Assembly: GCA_016841955.1 (NCBI GenBank)
Contig: JAENYE010000002.1
Span: 108,779-165,343 of the forward strand
Length of the DNA: 56,565 bases
Direction: 5' to 3'
Source of the DNA: Methanobacteriota archaeon
GTDB taxonomy: Archaea > Halobacteriota > Methanomicrobia > Methanomicrobiales > Methanoculleaceae
A model generated the notes under the pieces. The model worked only from the letters and a program-made list of their open reading frames with translations. It had not been told where the DNA came from and searched no databases. Shown here one piece after another: positions 2,938-11,515 of this stretch (positions within the stretch are counted from its first letter, which is position 1; each line of letters begins with the position of its first letter). The translations under genes and the position numbers were made by a program.

Positions 2938-3309
2938 TCAGGCGGGGCCGGGAGGCTGCTGTTTTCCTTCCAGCGCTCCCCTGATCTGTGAGGATAACTG
3001 CTCGAACCTGCCCTGCAGGGCCTTCTCCTGTTTCTCGAGCGACTTGACCCGGAGATCGAGCGTCTCGACGCGCTCGTTTAAGGAAGCAAGCACCTGCTCC
3101 TTGCTCTTCTGCATCATGACACTGCCGACGTTCATGAAGACCGCCGCATCATCGGGGACGTCGGCCAGATCCTCGACCGCCCGCCTGGCTTCGCGGATCG
3201 TCAATTCGTACTGCGCTTTCTGTGAGACCACGGTCTGCAGCTGCTGCTGCATCTGCTGAAGCATCGCCAGCTGGTTCTGTACTTTTGGTGGGATGTTTTC
3301 CATATTCAT
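2938..3309 (-). CDS. pfdB: Prefoldin subunit beta
   Basis: A 123-residue protein with N- and C-terminal coiled coils around a short beta hairpin, starting NIPPKVQNQLAMLQQMQQQL, the usual archaeal prefoldin (GimC) beta opening. Prefoldin is a hexameric cytosolic chaperone that hands unfolded proteins to the thermosome. ATG at 3309 was chosen because GAGGCAGGTTG precedes it and a TATA-like GAAATATTGT lies at 3341-3350; ATG at 3303 is also possible. The upstream open frame to 3417 crosses that promoter and is rejected. It sits at the end of the superoperon, where archaea commonly place it, but with its own promoter. Confidence 0.92.
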   Translation of the reverse strand: MNMENIPPKVQNQLAMLQQMQQQLQTVVSQKAQYELTIREARRAVEDLADVPDDAAVFMNVGSVMMQKSKEQVLASLNERVETLDLRVKSLEKQEKALQGRFEQLSSQIRGALEGKQQPPGPA

Positions 3310-3471
3310 CAACCTGCCTCGAATGGGACGAAGATCGGTAACAATATTTCGGGTGGCGGACAGGGGACCTTCCCGGCCCTCTACCCTTTCTCTACATGGT
3401 AGGGGCGTGAAGCCCATAAAATGTGAGGGTTCACGAGAGAGATCTTCGTCTCCCGCCCGGTATCTCTCCCC

Positions 3472-3723
3472 CTACCGGGACGCATCAGACGGGACAGCGA
3501 TCTCCCGCATCTCGATTGCTATGGTGATCAGCCGCAGCCAGGTGTTGAGGGCCGCCCGGAGTGCGGGTATATCGGTGGCGGTCACCTCGAGGACGAGCGT
3601 ATCGTCGCCAGCGAGCCTTACCCGGGCGGACGACCGGTCCCCCACGTCGCCCATCTCCTGGCAGACGGAGAGGTAGAGGGCACGGGCATCGTCGGTAGCG
3701 AACCGGAAGACTGCCGTATGCAT
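3472..3723 (-). CDS. pcc1: KEOPS complex subunit Pcc1
   Basis: An 83-residue protein with the compact Pcc1 alpha-beta fold and the characteristic helix LNTWLRLITIAIEM near the C-terminus. Pcc1 dimerises and scaffolds KEOPS, which installs threonylcarbamoyl on A37 of tRNAs that read ANN codons. The ATG at 3723-3721 overlaps the stop of the Brix gene by one base (TGATG), so translational coupling is likely; a GTG one codon earlier is the alternative. Pcc1 next to the Brix and Rpo12 genes is the conserved archaeal order, which supports the call for this short protein. Confidence 0.88.
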   Translation of the reverse strand: MHTAVFRFATDDARALYLSVCQEMGDVGDRSSARVRLAGDDTLVLEVTATDIPALRAALNTWLRLITIAIEMREIAVPSDASR

Positions 3724-4127
3724 CACGGGACGACCTTCAGGGTGTAGCGTTTCCGTTGCGTCCCGTCAAAGACGATACGGTGTCCTGAGAGAGCCTCACC
3801 GGCAAACACGACGTCGATGTGATCCTTAAGCGCCTCGTATACAGGACGATCCGAGACGAATAGCCCGCGGGCGATCGTTCCGGGGCGCTCCTCGACGGCA
3901 AACGACTTGACGCGGATCTCCGCCACCGGCTCTCCGCCGGAAAATGCCTGGATAAGAAAAAAAGGACCGGATTTCGAGACGATCACAACCGGCTCGTCGA
4001 GGGAGAGGAGGTCGCCCATGCCCGCCTTTCCACGGGTGATATACTCCCCGCCGATTGAGAACGCCAGATCCCGTGCCAGGGAACGCACCTCCGGGACCGG
4101 TTTGCGTGACGTCGTGACGACCGTCAT
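3723..4127 (-). CDS. Brix domain protein (archaeal IMP4-like)
   Basis: A 134-residue protein that is essentially a minimal Brix domain: an N-terminal TTSRKP motif typical of IMP4-like proteins followed by the beta-rich RNA-binding repeat around [16 protein letters not shown]. Brix proteins act in ribosome assembly. It overlaps the stop of rpoP (TGATG-type overlap at 4124-4127) and is overlapped by pcc1. The size is typical for archaeal members, which are shorter than eukaryotic Imp4. Confidence 0.88.
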
Positions 4128-4255
4128 CGAGCCTTCAGATCTTTTATTGCGGCTCCACGTTCCTTGAAGAGGATGCGGTGTCCACAGTAGGGACAGCGAA
4201 TATTGACGTCGATTTCGACTTTTTGTTTACAACGAGCGCACTTATAGGCAGCCAC
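4124..4255 (-). CDS. rpoP: DNA-directed RNA polymerase subunit P (Rpo12)
   Basis: A 43-residue protein with GTG start at 4255. It carries one zinc ribbon, C6-x2-C9 and C21-x2-C24, with the conserved RCPYCGHRI segment and a basic tail, matching archaeal Rpo12 (eukaryotic Rpb12/ABC10-alpha). Rpo12 sits in the RNA polymerase assembly platform with Rpo3, Rpo10 and Rpo11. It starts 6 bases after the L37Ae stop and its own stop overlaps the Brix ATG, the standard archaeal gene order. Confidence 0.93.
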
Positions 4256-4261
4256 GACCGA

Positions 4262-4552
4262 TTAGCCCTCCTTCTGCAGCGAGCGCTCGATGCTCCGTGC
4301 GGCGACGCGCATCGCCGGCGTCTCCGGGACGTAGCTGCCGCCGGCAAACTTGAATCCGCACTTGCGGCACGTCCAGATTCCCGTTCCTTCACGCTTGACC
4401 GCTTGCTGATCGCAGCGGGGACAGGAGTGGGTCGCGCGGGAGACAGTCTCGATCTGGTTTACCCTCTTCCGGATAAACCGGCCATACCTCGGACCAAAAC
4501 GCCCGGAACTTCCGACTACCCTGCCCTTGGCTTTCTGTTTGCGTCTTGCCAT
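4262..4552 (-). CDS. rpl37ae: 50S ribosomal protein L37Ae
   Basis: A 96-residue basic protein with a zinc finger, CPRC and CRKC about 15 residues apart, and the L37Ae signature GRFGPRYGRFIRKRV near the N-terminus. It is a large-subunit protein of archaea and eukaryotes. The start ATG is preceded by TTAGAGGTACGCG. A 55-base gap separates it from SBDS, and an A/T-rich AACTATATTAG in that gap could be its own promoter. In many archaea exosome genes rrp4, rrp41 and rrp42 occupy this gap; here they are missing. Confidence 0.95.
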   Translation of the reverse strand: MARRKQKAKGRVVGSSGRFGPRYGRFIRKRVNQIETVSRATHSCPRCDQQAVKREGTGIWTCRKCGFKFAGGSYVPETPAMRVAARSIERSLQKEG

Positions 4553-4607
4553 TTCGCGTACCTCTAATATGTCCTCTAATTTTTGTACTGTCGACTAATA
4601 TAGTTAC

Positions 4608-5327
4608 TCACGACATGCGTTCGATGATCCGGGTCTCTGCATTACCCCTGGAGAGTTTGTTGATCAGGTCGTAGAACTCTTCCTGGATACCTGCCGGAAT
4701 TCTGACGACGGCGATCCAGGAACCGTCCTTCTGCCACTCGTTCTGCTCGATCGTCGTCGCGGTCTGGAGTTCCCCGTAGGCTCTCGCGGCATAATCCCCC
4801 GGGATCTTCACGGCGATGCGGACTTCCTCGAACCGGATGGGGAGAATCGGGCGGAGCGCCTTGACCACCTCTTTGACCTGCTCCTCGACGGATTTGAAGG
4901 GGTCGATGTTCACCCTCGCCTCTTCCATGGCGAGCTCGATGCGCTGCGGGGGATGAGGGAACCCGGACTGCGGATTGATGGCGTTCCTTGCGATAAAGGT
5001 GATGACCCGGTTCCGCTTCTCTGCGGTAAGGTGGCGGCGCTGTTCGGAGGTGAGATGGATCTCGCCCTTCTGGATGATCCGGAGTGCGGCCGGCTCGAAC
5101 TCGGTCGTCTTGAAGACCTTCAGGAGGGCATCGTCGGAGGCCCGTTCGGCATGAGCGGCGTTCGAGAAGATGGAGTCGGCTGCGACAACCTCTTCCAGGT
5201 CGATCTCCTCCCCCTGCCGGATACGCATGGCCTGGTCGGGGTCGACAAGCACTTCGAACCGTTCTCCGTAGCTCTCAAGCCGCGCTACAACAGCCTGGTC
5301 CAGGGGTATCATACGGGTGACGCTCAC
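4608..5327 (-). CDS. Ribosome maturation protein SBDS (Sdo1)
   Basis: A 239-residue protein with the three SBDS domains: N-terminal FYSH domain (about residues 8-95, with YGERFEVLVDPDQA), central helical bundle (about 100-165, with FIARNAINPQ), and C-terminal ferredoxin-like domain. SBDS helps release the anti-association factor aIF6 from the 50S subunit. The GTG at 5327 overlaps the psmA stop (GTGA) and gives the length listed; ATG at 5312, giving MIPLDQAVVARL, fits the usual archaeal N-terminus slightly better. Confidence 0.95.
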   Translation of the reverse strand: MSVTRMIPLDQAVVARLESYGERFEVLVDPDQAMRIRQGEEIDLEEVVAADSIFSNAAHAERASDDALLKVFKTTEFEPAALRIIQKGEIHLTSEQRRHLTAEKRNRVITFIARNAINPQSGFPHPPQRIELAMEEARVNIDPFKSVEEQVKEVVKALRPILPIRFEEVRIAVKIPGDYAARAYGELQTATTIEQNEWQKDGSWIAVVRIPAGIQEEFYDLINKLSRGNAETRIIERMS

Positions 5328-6046
5328 TCTTCGAACTGGTCGACGTAGGCCTTTACCTCATCCTTCTCCAGCTTCCGGAACTCCCGGGTCTCGATGGAGA
5401 CAACGCCGATCTCGATGGCGCTCACGTCCAGCTTGCCCTCTGTCGCGGCATGCAGGGCCTTGATACCGAGTTTGATGGCGCCGGCGAAGTCCGCCCCCTC
5501 CTGGTACTCGTCCTCGAAGACCTTCATGACCGCAGGCCGGCCCGTGCCGATCCCGGCCGCCTTGTACTCGAGCAGCGTGCCGCTCGGATCGGTCTCAAAC
5601 AGCCGGGCCTCCCCGTCGCTGACCCCTGCGATCAGGAGAGCGGTCCCGTAGGGGCGCGCACCGCCGAACTGGGTGTAGGTCTGCATGTGGTCGCAGAGTT
5701 TTTTGGCCAGGATCTCGACGTTGATCGGCTCGTTGTAGGAGACCCGGTTGATCTGGGACTCGACCCGTGCCCTGTCCACGAGGGACCGCGCATCGCCGAC
5801 GAGGCCGGAGGACGCCACACCGATGTGCGTATCGATCTTGAAGATCTTCTCGATGGAGACCGGTTCGAGGAGACGGGAAGTCACTCTTTTATCGACGATC
5901 AGCACGACGCCTTCGCTGCATTTGATTCCAACGGCTGTCGTGCCCCGTTTCACCGCTTCTCTCGCGTATTCTACCTGGTAAAGCCTTCCGTCCGGGCTGA
6001 AGACAGTGATCGCCCGGTCATATCCCATCTGATATTGTGGTTGCAT
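5324..6046 (-). CDS. psmA: Proteasome subunit alpha
   Basis: A 240-residue 20S alpha subunit with the alpha-type signature YDRAITVFSPDGRLYQVEYA at residues 9-28 and no processed threonine, as expected for the non-catalytic outer ring that gates the chamber. GGAGGAACGATA just before the ATG is a clear ribosome site, and the start overlaps the rnp2 stop by one base (TAATG). The beta subunit is not in this window. Confidence 0.97.
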   Translation of the reverse strand: MQPQYQMGYDRAITVFSPDGRLYQVEYAREAVKRGTTAVGIKCSEGVVLIVDKRVTSRLLEPVSIEKIFKIDTHIGVASSGLVGDARSLVDRARVESQINRVSYNEPINVEILAKKLCDHMQTYTQFGGARPYGTALLIAGVSDGEARLFETDPSGTLLEYKAAGIGTGRPAVMKVFEDEYQEGADFAGAIKLGIKALHAATEGKLDVSAIEIGVVSIETREFRKLEKDEVKAYVDQFEE

Positions 6047-6528
6047 TATCGTTCCTCCAAATCGGCTTCGGTGAAAAACAATGACTTCTGATGCTTAATA
6101 CCTTTTTCAACCAAATCAACCTTTTGACGCGGATAGCGGTACACCGTGAAATAGGTTTCCCCGAACTTCACGTCCCCGGCCTCAGAGAGGGGGCGGATAG
6201 GCTTTATCCGGCGCCGCAGTGCATGAATGGTCCCGGAGATGGCGACCGTCCGGAGTGCAGCCCGCTCATCGGCGATCGTGTTGACCGTTGCAAGAGCGGT
6301 GGCGATATCCTTCTCTGTTCCCCGCCGGCACCGGACCACGGCATACCCCCCGTCGCAGAAGACCACCGCCGGTTGCGCAAGACCGACGGCCGCATCGCCC
6401 CAGAGAGAGGTCGCGGCCTCGATGACCGAGAAGTACACCTGTTTCTGGTCCATTTTCACCCCGTACGGGAGAATCCGCGCCAGGATATAACGCCGCTTTT
6501 CCCGCATCGACGGGGGCCTCGGCTTCAT
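6046..6528 (-). CDS. rnp2: RNase P protein component 2 (Pop5)
   Basis: A 160-residue Pop5/Rpp14-family protein beginning with PPSMREKRRYIL and holding the conserved RCRRGTEKDIATALATV strand-helix unit. It pairs with Rpp30 to activate the RNase P RNA in 5' tRNA processing. The ATG overlaps the rnp3 stop by four bases (ATGA) and the stop overlaps the psmA start, so the two RNase P proteins are made coupled. The C-terminal 40 residues are somewhat longer than in minimal Pop5. Confidence 0.92.
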   Translation of the reverse strand: MKPRPPSMREKRRYILARILPYGVKMDQKQVYFSVIEAATSLWGDAAVGLAQPAVVFCDGGYAVVRCRRGTEKDIATALATVNTIADERAALRTVAISGTIHALRRRIKPIRPLSEAGDVKFGETYFTVYRYPRQKVDLVEKGIKHQKSLFFTEADLEER

Positions 6529-7169
6529 CCGACCACCCTCACAGGCTGGTGCGGTTCGGTAATCCGGCCGACGGACGAGAGGGCCTCACCGATTTCCGCC
6601 CCGGTCATGCCGAAGAGTGCACAGAGACCCCGGACGTCGCGGACCGATCGCTGCCCGAGTATCGAGCGGGCATCCGAGGATATCGTCAGCCCAAAGCCGT
6701 AGCGCCGCTGCAACGAGAGGATATCCGCGTACCGCTGCAGCGCTCTCTGGCGCTTCGTCCCGCGGAGCTGGACGATGGGAGCCATCGAGATATCCACCGC
6801 CACGCCACGCTCCGCCGCCGACCGTGCGGCGACGTGGTCGAAGGCGTTCCTCCGGGTGGCGTGGATGTTCCTGATGACGTGCACCTCTTTGATCGAGACA
6901 ACCGCCCGGTTGAAGGAGATGTCCCCGGCGTTGACATAGACCACGTCGGCACCCCGGATGGCGGGGCTGCGCACCTGCCTGAGAACCTCTTTTGCAGACG
7001 CAGCACAGATCACGGCACCCCGGAGAACCTCGATTCCGTGATGCTGATCCCCGGCATCTCCGATAGCGACGATGCTGTCGAACCCGAGCCCTGCCGCCTC
7101 GATCGCCATCCGCGCAAGCGTCGAGTCACCGGCAGGATAGGGGTGTATGCTGGCGTCTGTGATCTTCAT
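6525..7169 (-). CDS. rnp3: RNase P protein component 3 (Rpp30)
   Basis: A 214-residue protein of the Rpp30 family with a PHP-like TIM barrel, shown by the DASIHPYP opening, VVYVNAGDISFNRAV and VAVDISMAPIVQL strands. It binds Pop5 in RNase P. It follows the L15e gene by 30 bases and overlaps rnp2. The gene pair and order are those of the archaeal superoperon. Confidence 0.92.
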   Translation of the reverse strand: MKITDASIHPYPAGDSTLARMAIEAAGLGFDSIVAIGDAGDQHHGIEVLRGAVICAASAKEVLRQVRSPAIRGADVVYVNAGDISFNRAVVSIKEVHVIRNIHATRRNAFDHVAARSAAERGVAVDISMAPIVQLRGTKRQRALQRYADILSLQRRYGFGLTISSDARSILGQRSVRDVRGLCALFGMTGAEIGEALSSVGRITEPHQPVRVVG

Positions 7170-7199: not shown

Positions 7200-7790
7200 T
7201 TATTTGCCGCGGTTCGCATGGGAACGAAGGCTCGGGCGTGTCTTCTCGGTTCCACGTCCACGCGTCCGCATCCCGCGTCCCTTCATGCCGGCAGAGGTCT
7301 TGCCGCGCTCTGCCCGGCCCCGGTGAACCGGGTCGGCCAGCCATGCGAGGTTGCGGTCGCTCCGGATCGACGGGTGGTGACCGTCGACCAGGATCACCTC
7401 AAACCACTTGGACCGTCCGTCCTCCCCGACCCAGTAGGAGTTCAGGGCTTCCATGTTCGGGAACTTGCGGGACGCCCGCTCTTCGGCCATGCGCTGCAGG
7501 CTCTTTGCCGGGGTCAGACGGCGCATGCCCATGCGTGCGGACCTGCGCCCGCGGATGTACCGGGGCTTCCTCCGGCCACCGCGGCGGACCTTGACCCGCA
7601 CAACGACGATTCCCTGTTTGGCCTTGTACCCGAGCGAGCGGGCCCGGTCGATCCGGGTCGGGTGCTCCACGCGTACGATACTCCCCTCGCGCCGCCACAC
7701 CTGGAGGCGCTCCCAGAGGAGACCTTTCACTTCGGACCGATCAGGCCGCTTCCATGCCTCGCGAACGTAGGCATACATCGATTTTGCCAT
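7200..7790 (-). CDS. rpl15e: 50S ribosomal protein L15e
   Basis: A 196-residue basic protein matching L15e along its length, opening [15 protein letters not shown] and containing [18 protein letters not shown], with an arginine-rich tail. It is the first gene of the minus-strand superoperon. GAGGTGATTTAAAAA before the ATG is a near-perfect archaeal ribosome site, and a TATA box at about 7872-7882 gives a leader of roughly 60 bases. Confidence 0.97.
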
Positions 7791-7871
7791 TTTTTAAATC
7801 ACCTCAGGTTCAGCGTTTCCGCCACATTCCTTTCCGGGACGTATCCCGTGGTTCCTAACAGGTTGACGGGA

Positions 7872-9875: not shown

Positions 9876-9945
9876 GTACCGCCCCTCGAGAAGTGTTGCC
9901 TGATCGGTGCTATGGCGTTTCTTTCTTAGATAGTTTTTTGAATGT

Positions 9946-10066
9946 GCGACGGGCCGAAGGGCCGGAGCTCGAGAAAACGCGAAGCGTTTTCGAGCTGCGA
10001 CGGTTCGTTACGCGACGGGCCAGAAAGCCAGAGCTTGAGATGCCATCAGGCTTCGAGGACGCGAAG
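9946..10066 (+). repeat. Two diverged hairpin repeat units
   Basis: Unit 1 (9946-9974) and unit 2 (10012-10040) agree at 23 of 29 positions over GCGACGGGCC....GAGA. After each comes a palindrome: GCTCGA(GA)AAACGC-GAA-GCGTTTTCGAGC at 9967-9995, a 12-pair stem with a 2-base bulge, and a weaker one at 10041-10055. Related units in the opposite orientation occur at 46300-46415 with different stem bases. The units lie in the gap before the DHH gene and would be translated as an arginine- and glutamate-rich extension if a longer start were used, which is a reason to reject that start. Confidence 0.6.
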
Positions 10067-10111
10067 ATGGCCACACTACCATGCTTTATTGACCCTTCAC
10101 CACCCACTACT

Positions 10112-11515
10112 ATGGAGATGAGCCTCGAGAACGATGTGCGGAGAGCGGCAGATATCATCTGCGATGCGGGGTCGGTGACGATTGTCTCCCACATCGACGC
10201 CGACGGCATCAGCACGGAGTCGATCCTCTCGCAGGCGCTCACCCGCGAGGGCATGGCGGTCGACTCCGTCTTCGTCCGCCAGCTCGAACCGATGGCGATG
10301 CGCCACGTCCCGAAGGACGATTCTTTGAAACTCTTCACCGACCTCGGGGCCGGCCAGCAGAATCTTCTTGAGGAGCACGGCCTCTGTGCGGACGAGGTCC
10401 TGATCCTCGACCACCACGTCGGCCAGCCCTGCGGCACGGCCTACCCCCAGGTCAACTGCCTGGACCACGGCATCACCCGGATGAGCGCCGCCGGGATCGC
10501 CTACCTGGTCGCAAAAGCGATCGACCAGACAGGCACCGACCTCGCCAAACTCGCCGTGGTCGGGAATGTCGGGGACATGATGGCCCGGGAGAACTGCGGG
10601 CTGGTCGGCCCGGCACGCGAGATCGTTCAGGACGGCGTGGAGTACGGCAACATCGTCGTGCAGGACCGGGACTTAAACTGCTACGGGACGTCCACCCGCC
10701 CGGTCCACGTCTGCCTCGGCTACTGCGACGACCCCTACATCGACGGGATCTCGAACAGCACGAGCGGGGCGCTCCGGTTCCTCGAGCGGCTCGGTGTTGA
10801 GCTGAAGACGCCCCGGGGCGGCTGGCTCGTCTGGGAAGAACTCCCGTTCGACGACAGGCGCAAGATCATCAGCGCCCTGGCCCAGCAGCTCCTCGCGCAC
10901 GGGAGGGAGACCGACCGCCTGCTCGCCGAGACCTACATCTTCCCCGACGAGCCGGAACGGACGCCGCTCCGGAACGCCTCCGAATACGCCACCCTCTTGA
11001 ACGCCTGCGGCCGGTGGGCGAAGCCCCGGGTCGGAGGCAGCATCTGCCGCGGTGACCGCGGACCCGCGTACCGCGACGCGGAGTACATGCTCGGTCACCA
11101 CCGGGCGGTCATCCGCGACCTGCTCCAGTACATCCTCGATACCGGGGTGACCGAGCTCTCGCACCTCCAGTACATCCACACCGGCGACCGGTTCCCCGAC
11201 ACCATCGTCGGCATCGGGGCGGGCATGGCGCTCTCCAAACTGAACTGGAAGAAACCGATGATGGTGCTGAGCGCGATGGTGGACGAACCGGAGGTCACCA
11301 AAGTCTCGATGCGGACGAACGAGTGGGCTCTCGCCCGGGGGGTCGACCTGCAGGAGGCGCTCGTCGAGGCGTCGGCAGCGGTGGGCGGCGCGGGCGGCGG
11401 ACACCGGATCGCGGCCGGGGCGTTTATTCCCCGCGAAACAGAAGAGGAGTTTGTTGATAGTGTCAACCGAATACTCAAACGACAGTTCGCTTCGGCGGAT
11501 CCGGACAATAGCTGA
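10112..11515 (+). CDS. DHH-family single-strand nuclease / phosphoesterase (archaeal RecJ-like)
   Basis: A 467-residue DHH/DHHA1 protein. The catalytic motifs are IVSHIDADGIST (residues 24-35), DHH at 100-102 in LILDHHVGQ, a conserved VVGNVGDM block, and the C-terminal DHHA1 substrate site GGAGGGHRIAAG. Archaeal members act as RecJ/GAN-like exonucleases tied to the replisome or as nanoRNases; which is not decidable here. ATG at 10112 lies about 25 bases after a TATA-like CTTTATT, so a leaderless start is likely. The frame continues upstream to 9893 through repeat DNA and that part is not counted. Confidence 0.9.
   Translation: MEMSLENDVRRAADIICDAGSVTIVSHIDADGISTESILSQALTREGMAVDSVFVRQLEPMAMRHVPKDDSLKLFTDLGAGQQNLLEEHGLCADEVLILDHHVGQPCGTAYPQVNCLDHGITRMSAAGIAYLVAKAIDQTGTDLAKLAVVGNVGDMMARENCGLVGPAREIVQDGVEYGNIVVQDRDLNCYGTSTRPVHVCLGYCDDPYIDGISNSTSGALRFLERLGVELKTPRGGWLVWEELPFDDRRKIISALAQQLLAHGRETDRLLAETYIFPDEPERTPLRNASEYATLLNACGRWAKPRVGGSICRGDRGPAYRDAEYMLGHHRAVIRDLLQYILDTGVTELSHLQYIHTGDRFPDTIVGIGAGMALSKLNWKKPMMVLSAMVDEPEVTKVSMRTNEWALARGVDLQEALVEASAAVGGAGGGHRIAAGAFIPRETEEEFVDSVNRILKRQFASADPDNS

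Follow-up and report, generated by a model that had tools for sequence, protein, structure and literature searches.

The archaeal exosome superoperon was reportedly described by Koonin and co-workers in 2001. The window analysed here, meaning the whole stretch of 56,565 nucleotides, carries the same flanking genes in the same order as that superoperon, but the three exosome genes are missing. Loss of the exosome in Methanomicrobiales is already known at clade level from the available portions of PMC4227792 and PMC8481954, and the Figure 2 legend of the latter names Methanospirillum and Methanocorpusculum among its species; the accessible part of PMC10470531 reports that exosomes are absent from halophiles and certain methanogens. 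Two further observations, made in general terms in the available text of PMC4227792, are that exosome-less archaea keep DnaG, the partner of the exosome cap, and that they contain counterparts of the bacterial enzymes RNase R and RNase J. The closest described candidates for a substitute are haloarchaeal RNase R (PMC2841640, in part) and the RecJ3/4-aRNase J complex of Haloferax volcanii, which PMC10470531 proposes to complement missing exosomes.

Read along the minus strand, the locus runs L15e, Rnp3, Rnp2, PsmA and SBDS and then, after exactly 55 bases, L37Ae, Rpo12, a Brix-type ORF, Pcc1 and prefoldin (Table 1). This order had been given in a preliminary description of the DNA, and Pfam matches and the coordinates bear it out for every gene except the Brix-type ORF and L15e. 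The former is a weak assignment: the Pfam search gave no match, and the match to the NCBIfam model PRK00933, 'rRNA maturation protein', is partial and scores 41.5 bits, under the cut-off of 171. The first ORF is presumed to be L15e, as in the preliminary description. The scanned Rpo12 frame probably begins at a GTG at 4255, read by eye. The eL15 leader at the head of the superoperon suggests feedback control of L15e, perhaps reaching the genes behind it too. Elsewhere in the window, a look-alike of an intron-bearing tRNA gene was seen by eye at about 1095-1200 on the minus strand, where ARAGORN and Rfam report none. Near the superoperon, positions 9893-11515 on the plus strand encode a RecJ_archaeal DHH/DHHA1 protein (NF053576, 531.8 bits), which has no S1 domain by Pfam and is therefore not the HAN protein discussed below.

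Table 1 Features of the superoperon in the window, in order of transcription
Feature	Position	Strand	Basis
eL15-Euryarchaeota ribosomal-protein leader	7802..7848	-	Rfam RF03144, 43.4 bits
L15e (presumed), first superoperon gene	7200..7790	-	ORF; eL15 leader directly upstream
Rnp3 (RNase P p30)	6525..7169	-	Pfam PF01876
Rnp2 (Rpp14/Pop5 family)	6046..6528	-	Pfam PF01900
PsmA, proteasome alpha subunit	5324..6046	-	Pfam PF00227, PF10584
SBDS, 239 aa	4608..5327	-	Pfam SBDS N, II and C domains
SBDS/L37Ae gap, site of rrp4-rrp41-rrp42 in exosome-bearing relatives	4553..4607	-	Locus comparison
L37Ae, 96 aa; gene after Rrp42 in exosome-bearing relatives	4262..4552	-	Pfam PF01780
Rpo12/RpoP (7 kDa RNA polymerase subunit), scanned frame	4124..4261	-	Pfam PF03604, 36.4 bits
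Brix-type rRNA maturation protein, weak	3723..4127	-	NCBIfam PRK00933, partial match
Pcc1	3472..3726	-	Pfam PF09341
Prefoldin subunit	2938..3417	-	Pfam PF01920

The arrangement PsmA-SBDS-[exosome genes]-L37Ae-Rpo12 was found in all eight loci compared from exosome-bearing genomes of other classes (L046-L053), which places the site of rrp4-rrp41-rrp42 where the preliminary description had put it. Seven of the eight slots hold an RNase PH match among the matches listed, the eighth being that of G233, and an Rrp4-type domain match lies directly after SBDS in G233, G250 and G236. We assigned the labels Rrp4, Rrp41 and Rrp42 from the domain matches and from the canonical order; the simple ORF list shows no Rrp41 frame for L047 or L051, where it is known from the RNase PH match alone. 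The closed junction PsmA-SBDS-L37Ae-Rpo12 is present in 14 of 14 other Methanomicrobia loci, drawn from six families, with gaps of 42-72 bases, and because all of them are closed the junction is neither chance nor a local artefact. Seven further loci came from outside the class. Six are of a haloarchaea-type group defined below, and none of these shows an L37Ae or Rpo12 match in the 9-10 kb stretch with SBDS. The seventh, L054, comes from G276 (family f10, 92% complete), a genome that keeps one Csl4/Rrp4-type domain; behind its SBDS (1556-2260) the stretch contains neither exosome genes nor L37Ae, which may reflect either an assembly hole or a further loss. In the deep-branching G326, a block L37Ae-Rpo12-Pcc1-prefoldin (L255, 5342-8007) stands apart from SBDS, which was not found within the 480,141 bases fetched, about a quarter of the genome; L37Ae is preceded there by a divergent, presumably carboxypeptidase-like ORF.

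The preliminary description had also placed a separate promoter in the gap. Retention of the gap as a new promoter for L37Ae would suit its composition (65% A+T, with ACTATATTAG upstream) and the strings resembling ACTATATTAG in two genomes of the same genus, G046 and G056, and in one from a different family, G011. However, the best TATA-like match in the gap is 6/8, a score that 92.6% of 2000 random rearrangements of its bases also reach and that is thus ordinary for its composition; in the four gaps of 42-43 bases in families f4 and f6 the string is missing, and gap sequences compared by eye are not conserved across families. We therefore regard a dedicated promoter as unlikely and the claim as unsupported. 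L37Ae may simply have stayed on the SBDS transcript, which would require no new promoter.

Domain searches that matched the positive controls Sulfolobus acidocaldarius and Methanosarcina acetivorans found no RNase_PH domain in the genome from which the window comes (99.47% complete, nine contigs). Across the class Methanomicrobia the domain was detected in 0 of 232 genomes, and likewise in 0 of the 135 with a completeness of 90% or more and a contamination of 5% or less. Within a phylum sample of 255 genomes it occurs in 134, in two copies each. The ECR1_N domain of Rrp4 and Csl4 is present in 136 genomes of this sample, namely the same 134 and, in one copy each, G276 and G340; it is absent from our genome, from the sampled Methanomicrobia and from the 58 haloarchaea-type genomes. 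Csl4, which is encoded outside the superoperon, is thus gone as well. DnaG is retained without an exosome, being found in our genome and in 252 of the 255 sampled. A relocation of the exosome genes, or their disappearance into an assembly hole, would be conceivable in a genome that is not closed, and G276 and G340, which keep one Rrp4/Csl4-type gene without RNase PH, indicate that assembly holes probably occur in the sample. Yet the count is zero throughout the class, several of the listed genomes consist of one contig, and the Rrp4/Csl4 domains are absent too; the RNase PH and ECR1_N searches together rule this explanation out, leaving it a negligible probability. The genome-wide search for Rrp4, Rrp41, Rrp42 and Csl4 proposed in the preliminary description thus found none of them, elsewhere or in place, and its claim that three genes were cleanly lost stands. 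What it ascribed to this organism is wider in scope: the loss extends to the whole class and to Csl4, and had already been published.

The preliminary description had argued that 3' decay must use another nuclease, possibly an RNase R or aRNase J, and our genome encodes both an aRNase J and an RNB-type nuclease, a candidate 3' exonuclease of RNase II/R type. The latter, of 498 aa, lies on contig C3 (L061:2639-4132, minus strand) and matches PF00773 at 263.5 bits (cut-off 29.3) and RNase_II_C_S1 at 68.1 bits. It scores 277.8 bits against the RNase R equivalog TIGR02063, below the cut-off of 597.85, and we accordingly file it, from its sequence, as a member of the RNB superfamily and not as RNase R. 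The residues taken to be catalytic are an acidic cluster, a Glu and Arg blocks. Three of the four Asp of the cluster are kept, the fourth being Gln in the subfamily, and the Glu and RR blocks are kept as well. Nearly every row of the subfamily has DSxDLDQ at the cluster, with Asp in place of the Gln in haloarchaea-type RNBs and bacterial RNase R. The putative 3'-5' exoribonuclease may perform the missing 3' decay.

Within the phylum sample, 114 of the 255 genomes have a Pfam RNB domain, including 51 of the 61 Methanomicrobia and all 58 exosome-less haloarchaea-type genomes, but only five of the 134 that bear an exosome. The exosome occurs alone in 129 genomes, RNB alone in 109, both in five and neither in 12, a complementarity that rests on two large clades and not on numerous independent events. 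The 58 genomes comprise every sampled member of families f13, f17, f20, f22, f23, f25, f26 and f29, and no genome sampled from these families bears an exosome. Trees and the control Haloferax volcanii, which gave an RNB match and no RNase PH match, lead us to interpret the 58 as haloarchaea and f23 (G326) as a deep-branching relative. Genomes with neither system are G276, G340 and ten of the 61 Methanomicrobia, among them every one of the six genomes sampled from genus g13. A protein search with our RNB found in one of these ten, G129, a fragment separated from the end of its contig by 33 bases, and in the other nine no credible match. In genus g22, one of G119 and G120 has an RNB and the other, 3.2 Mb in one contig, has no credible match, a difference that probably reflects loss within the genus. 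Given the nine Methanomicrobia with no credible match, all six sampled g13 genomes among them, RNB is not indispensable in the class. The five genomes with both systems are two of family f8, in which the exosome is accompanied by yet another, distant RNB, and three with an RNB of the DLDQ type (G239, G247 and G408; loci L062, L063 and L064) from families f14 and f21, which we take, from their kin, to be Methanocella and Methanothrix. As far as our searches reach, the tracking of exosome absence by RNB in Methanomicrobia is new; they returned no publication that describes an RNB as the exosome's replacement in Methanomicrobiales, an absence that weighs little because open-licence literature alone was covered.

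The RNB of our genome is 58-85% identical to 20 other methanomicrobial rows, 50-53% to those of f14 and f21 and 26-30% to those of haloarchaea-type. Among the best 80 of 580 confirmed records, the closest named ones are 85-89% identical, with Methanoculleus sp. UBA208 and M. chikugoensis among them, so that our genome probably belongs to Methanoculleus. The most similar named proteins from beyond the class in this set (56-60%) belong to Candidatus Omnitrophota and a few Micrarchaeota; these are mostly metagenome bins whose labels may be wrong, one record of the Omnitrophota type being titled Elusimicrobia, and the motifs that seeded the scan were those of the subfamily itself, which the scan therefore favours. 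Five of the 80 scan loci were dropped for an internal stop (L122, L148, L169) or insufficient length (L174, L184), and 42 of the remaining 75 entered a 65-row tree. The haloarchaea-type and f8 rows were deliberately kept out of it, and L083 (internal stops) and L104 (a fragment) were left out too. Methanomicrobial RNBs form one clade in this tree (SH-aLRT 97) and in two trees of hand-picked rows (100/97 with 46 rows, 99/96 with 33 rows), and the clade sits inside an Omnitrophota-rich one, which suggests a transfer from bacteria to the methanogens, with an Omnitrophota-like organism as the putative donor. We considered whether the f14/f21 genomes, with exosome and RNB together, represent an intermediate of the same replacement. 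A joint clade of their RNBs with the methanomicrobial ones was rejected (p-AU 5.8e-6) and they group with other bacteria, so these RNBs are parallel gains from bacteria. The relation to the haloarchaea-type RNBs depends on the rows included: a single clade with the methanomicrobial ones is not rejected when bacterial RNase R is left out (p 0.203) and is rejected once four rows of it are added (p-AU 1.2e-4), a rejection less secure than its p-value because those four rows did not group together and long branches were flagged by the program. By its motifs, DLDQ and TAPNRRY versus DFDD and TSPIRR, the methanomicrobial RNB is assigned to a subfamily other than that of haloarchaeal RNase R.

The functional replacement could alternatively be a HAN/RecJ3-4 complex with aRNase J, as proposed for Haloferax volcanii in the available part of PMC10470531, and not RNB. 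Our genome encodes one S1-OB-DHH protein (NF053577, 808.4 bits, slightly short of the 840-bit cut-off) and one aRNase J (TIGR00649, 453 bits against a cut-off of 400), and both genes are present in 61 of 61 sampled Methanomicrobia, including those that lack RNB, and in 58 of 58 haloarchaea-type genomes. In two exosome-bearing genomes of family f27, G359 (L231, 527-4995) and G389 (L233, 521-4985), the HAN-type and aRNase J genes are neighbours on one strand, with about 1.3 kb between them, a neighbourhood that fits a partnership older than the exosome loss. Neither gene tracks exosome absence, however, as RNB does: HAN occurs in 222 of the 255 genomes and 102 of the 134 exosome-bearing ones, aRNase J in 195 and 76, respectively. 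This distribution makes HAN no specific replacement, and both proteins look ancestral in the phylum sample rather than complementary to the exosome. We therefore judge the complex unlikely to be the replacement in general, while HAN and aRNase J are the best candidates for 3' decay in the RNB-less genus g13.

We favour, with a probability of about 0.7, the reading that the gap is the scar of a complete exosome loss preceding the radiation of the Methanomicrobia, with RNB-led hydrolytic decay since. Rrp4, Rrp41, Rrp42 and the unlinked Csl4 would have been lost before the class radiated, the remaining superoperon genes staying and closing up, and an RNase II/R-type exonuclease with an RNB domain and a C-terminal S1 domain would have been gained once from bacteria. 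Bulk 3'-5' RNA decay would now be hydrolytic, carried out by RNB together with the older HAN (S1-DHH) nuclease, with aRNase J and with aCPSF1; nucleoside monophosphates would be released and RNA no longer phosphorolysed, and A-rich tails made by the exosome would be expected to be missing. With the census, a known exosome loss becomes a natural experiment. In one clade a machine of several subunits that phosphorolyses and tails RNA seems to have been replaced by a single hydrolytic enzyme, in a second clade the same seems to have happened with another RNB subfamily, and genus g13 inside the first has neither. Culturable species would allow a direct test of the need for an archaeal exosome and of the role of DnaG without one.

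A scar common to Methanomicrobia and haloarchaea was sought, but SBDS-L37Ae adjacency was not found in the six haloarchaea-type loci or in the part of G326 fetched, and the scar thus cannot decide between one loss and two. Two losses would be needed if Methanocellales, bearing exosomes as do the f14 genomes that we take to be Methanocella, lie inside the group, since an exosome-bearing lineage would then fall within it. The available text of PMC7599335 places Methanomicrobiales as sister to haloarchaea plus Hikarchaeia in some analyses and with Methanocellales in others, and that of PMC8481954 counts a loss in Halobacteria and another in Methanomicrobiales. Separate losses would agree with the distinct motifs of the two RNB subfamilies, with the rejection of a single RNB clade once bacterial RNase R rows are included and with an operon broken differently in the haloarchaea-type loci, none of the six having L37Ae near SBDS. 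Nevertheless, a single loss may precede the uptake of different nucleases, the RNB test without bacterial RNase R rows leaves one clade standing, and two small trees unite both lineages apart from every exosome-bearing row. Methanomicrobia and haloarchaea-type genomes form one clade with HAN and aRNase J (24 rows, 100/99) and with SBDS and PsmA (30 rows, 97/87), the latter set also rejecting Methanomicrobia plus f14 as a clade (p 0.016). Both trees use few genes and hand-picked rows with long haloarchaeal branches, and three haloarchaea-type rows (SBDS and PsmA) and three outgroup rows (HAN and aRNase J) cover under half of the columns. The HAN and aRNase J tree is further weakened if nuclease genes co-evolve with exosome loss, as the accessible part of PMC4227792 argues for DnaG, whose tree joins Methanomicrobiales and haloarchaea groups. 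We consider one ancestral loss as plausible as the published two. Separate losses remain a serious contender, though short of an even chance. For the detailed course of a single event the odds are nearly balanced: one loss in a methanogenic ancestor of Methanomicrobiales and haloarchaea before halophily, uptake of two different bacterial RNBs, the methanogen's from an Omnitrophota-like donor, and a later dropping of RNB by genus g13, which we read as Methanocorpusculum.

The clade-level loss is the same as that reported, for Methanomicrobiales and Halobacteria, in the available portions of PMC8481954 and PMC4227792; beyond these, the present analysis adds the class-wide census, the anatomy of the junction, the tracking by RNB and trees that allow one loss. 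The complex of Haloferax volcanii (PMC10470531, in part) has homologues of its parts in our genome, which differs in having one S1-DHH copy and not two, and S1-DHH proteins are widespread in exosome-bearing genomes too. With haloarchaeal RNase R, as far as the accessible part of PMC2841640 goes, the methanomicrobial enzyme shares a bacterial-type RNB, predicted here to be hydrolytic, in exosome-less archaea, but the haloarchaea-type proteins have DFDD and TSPIRR where the methanomicrobial subfamily has DLDQ and TAPNRRY, and are only distantly similar at the identity given above.
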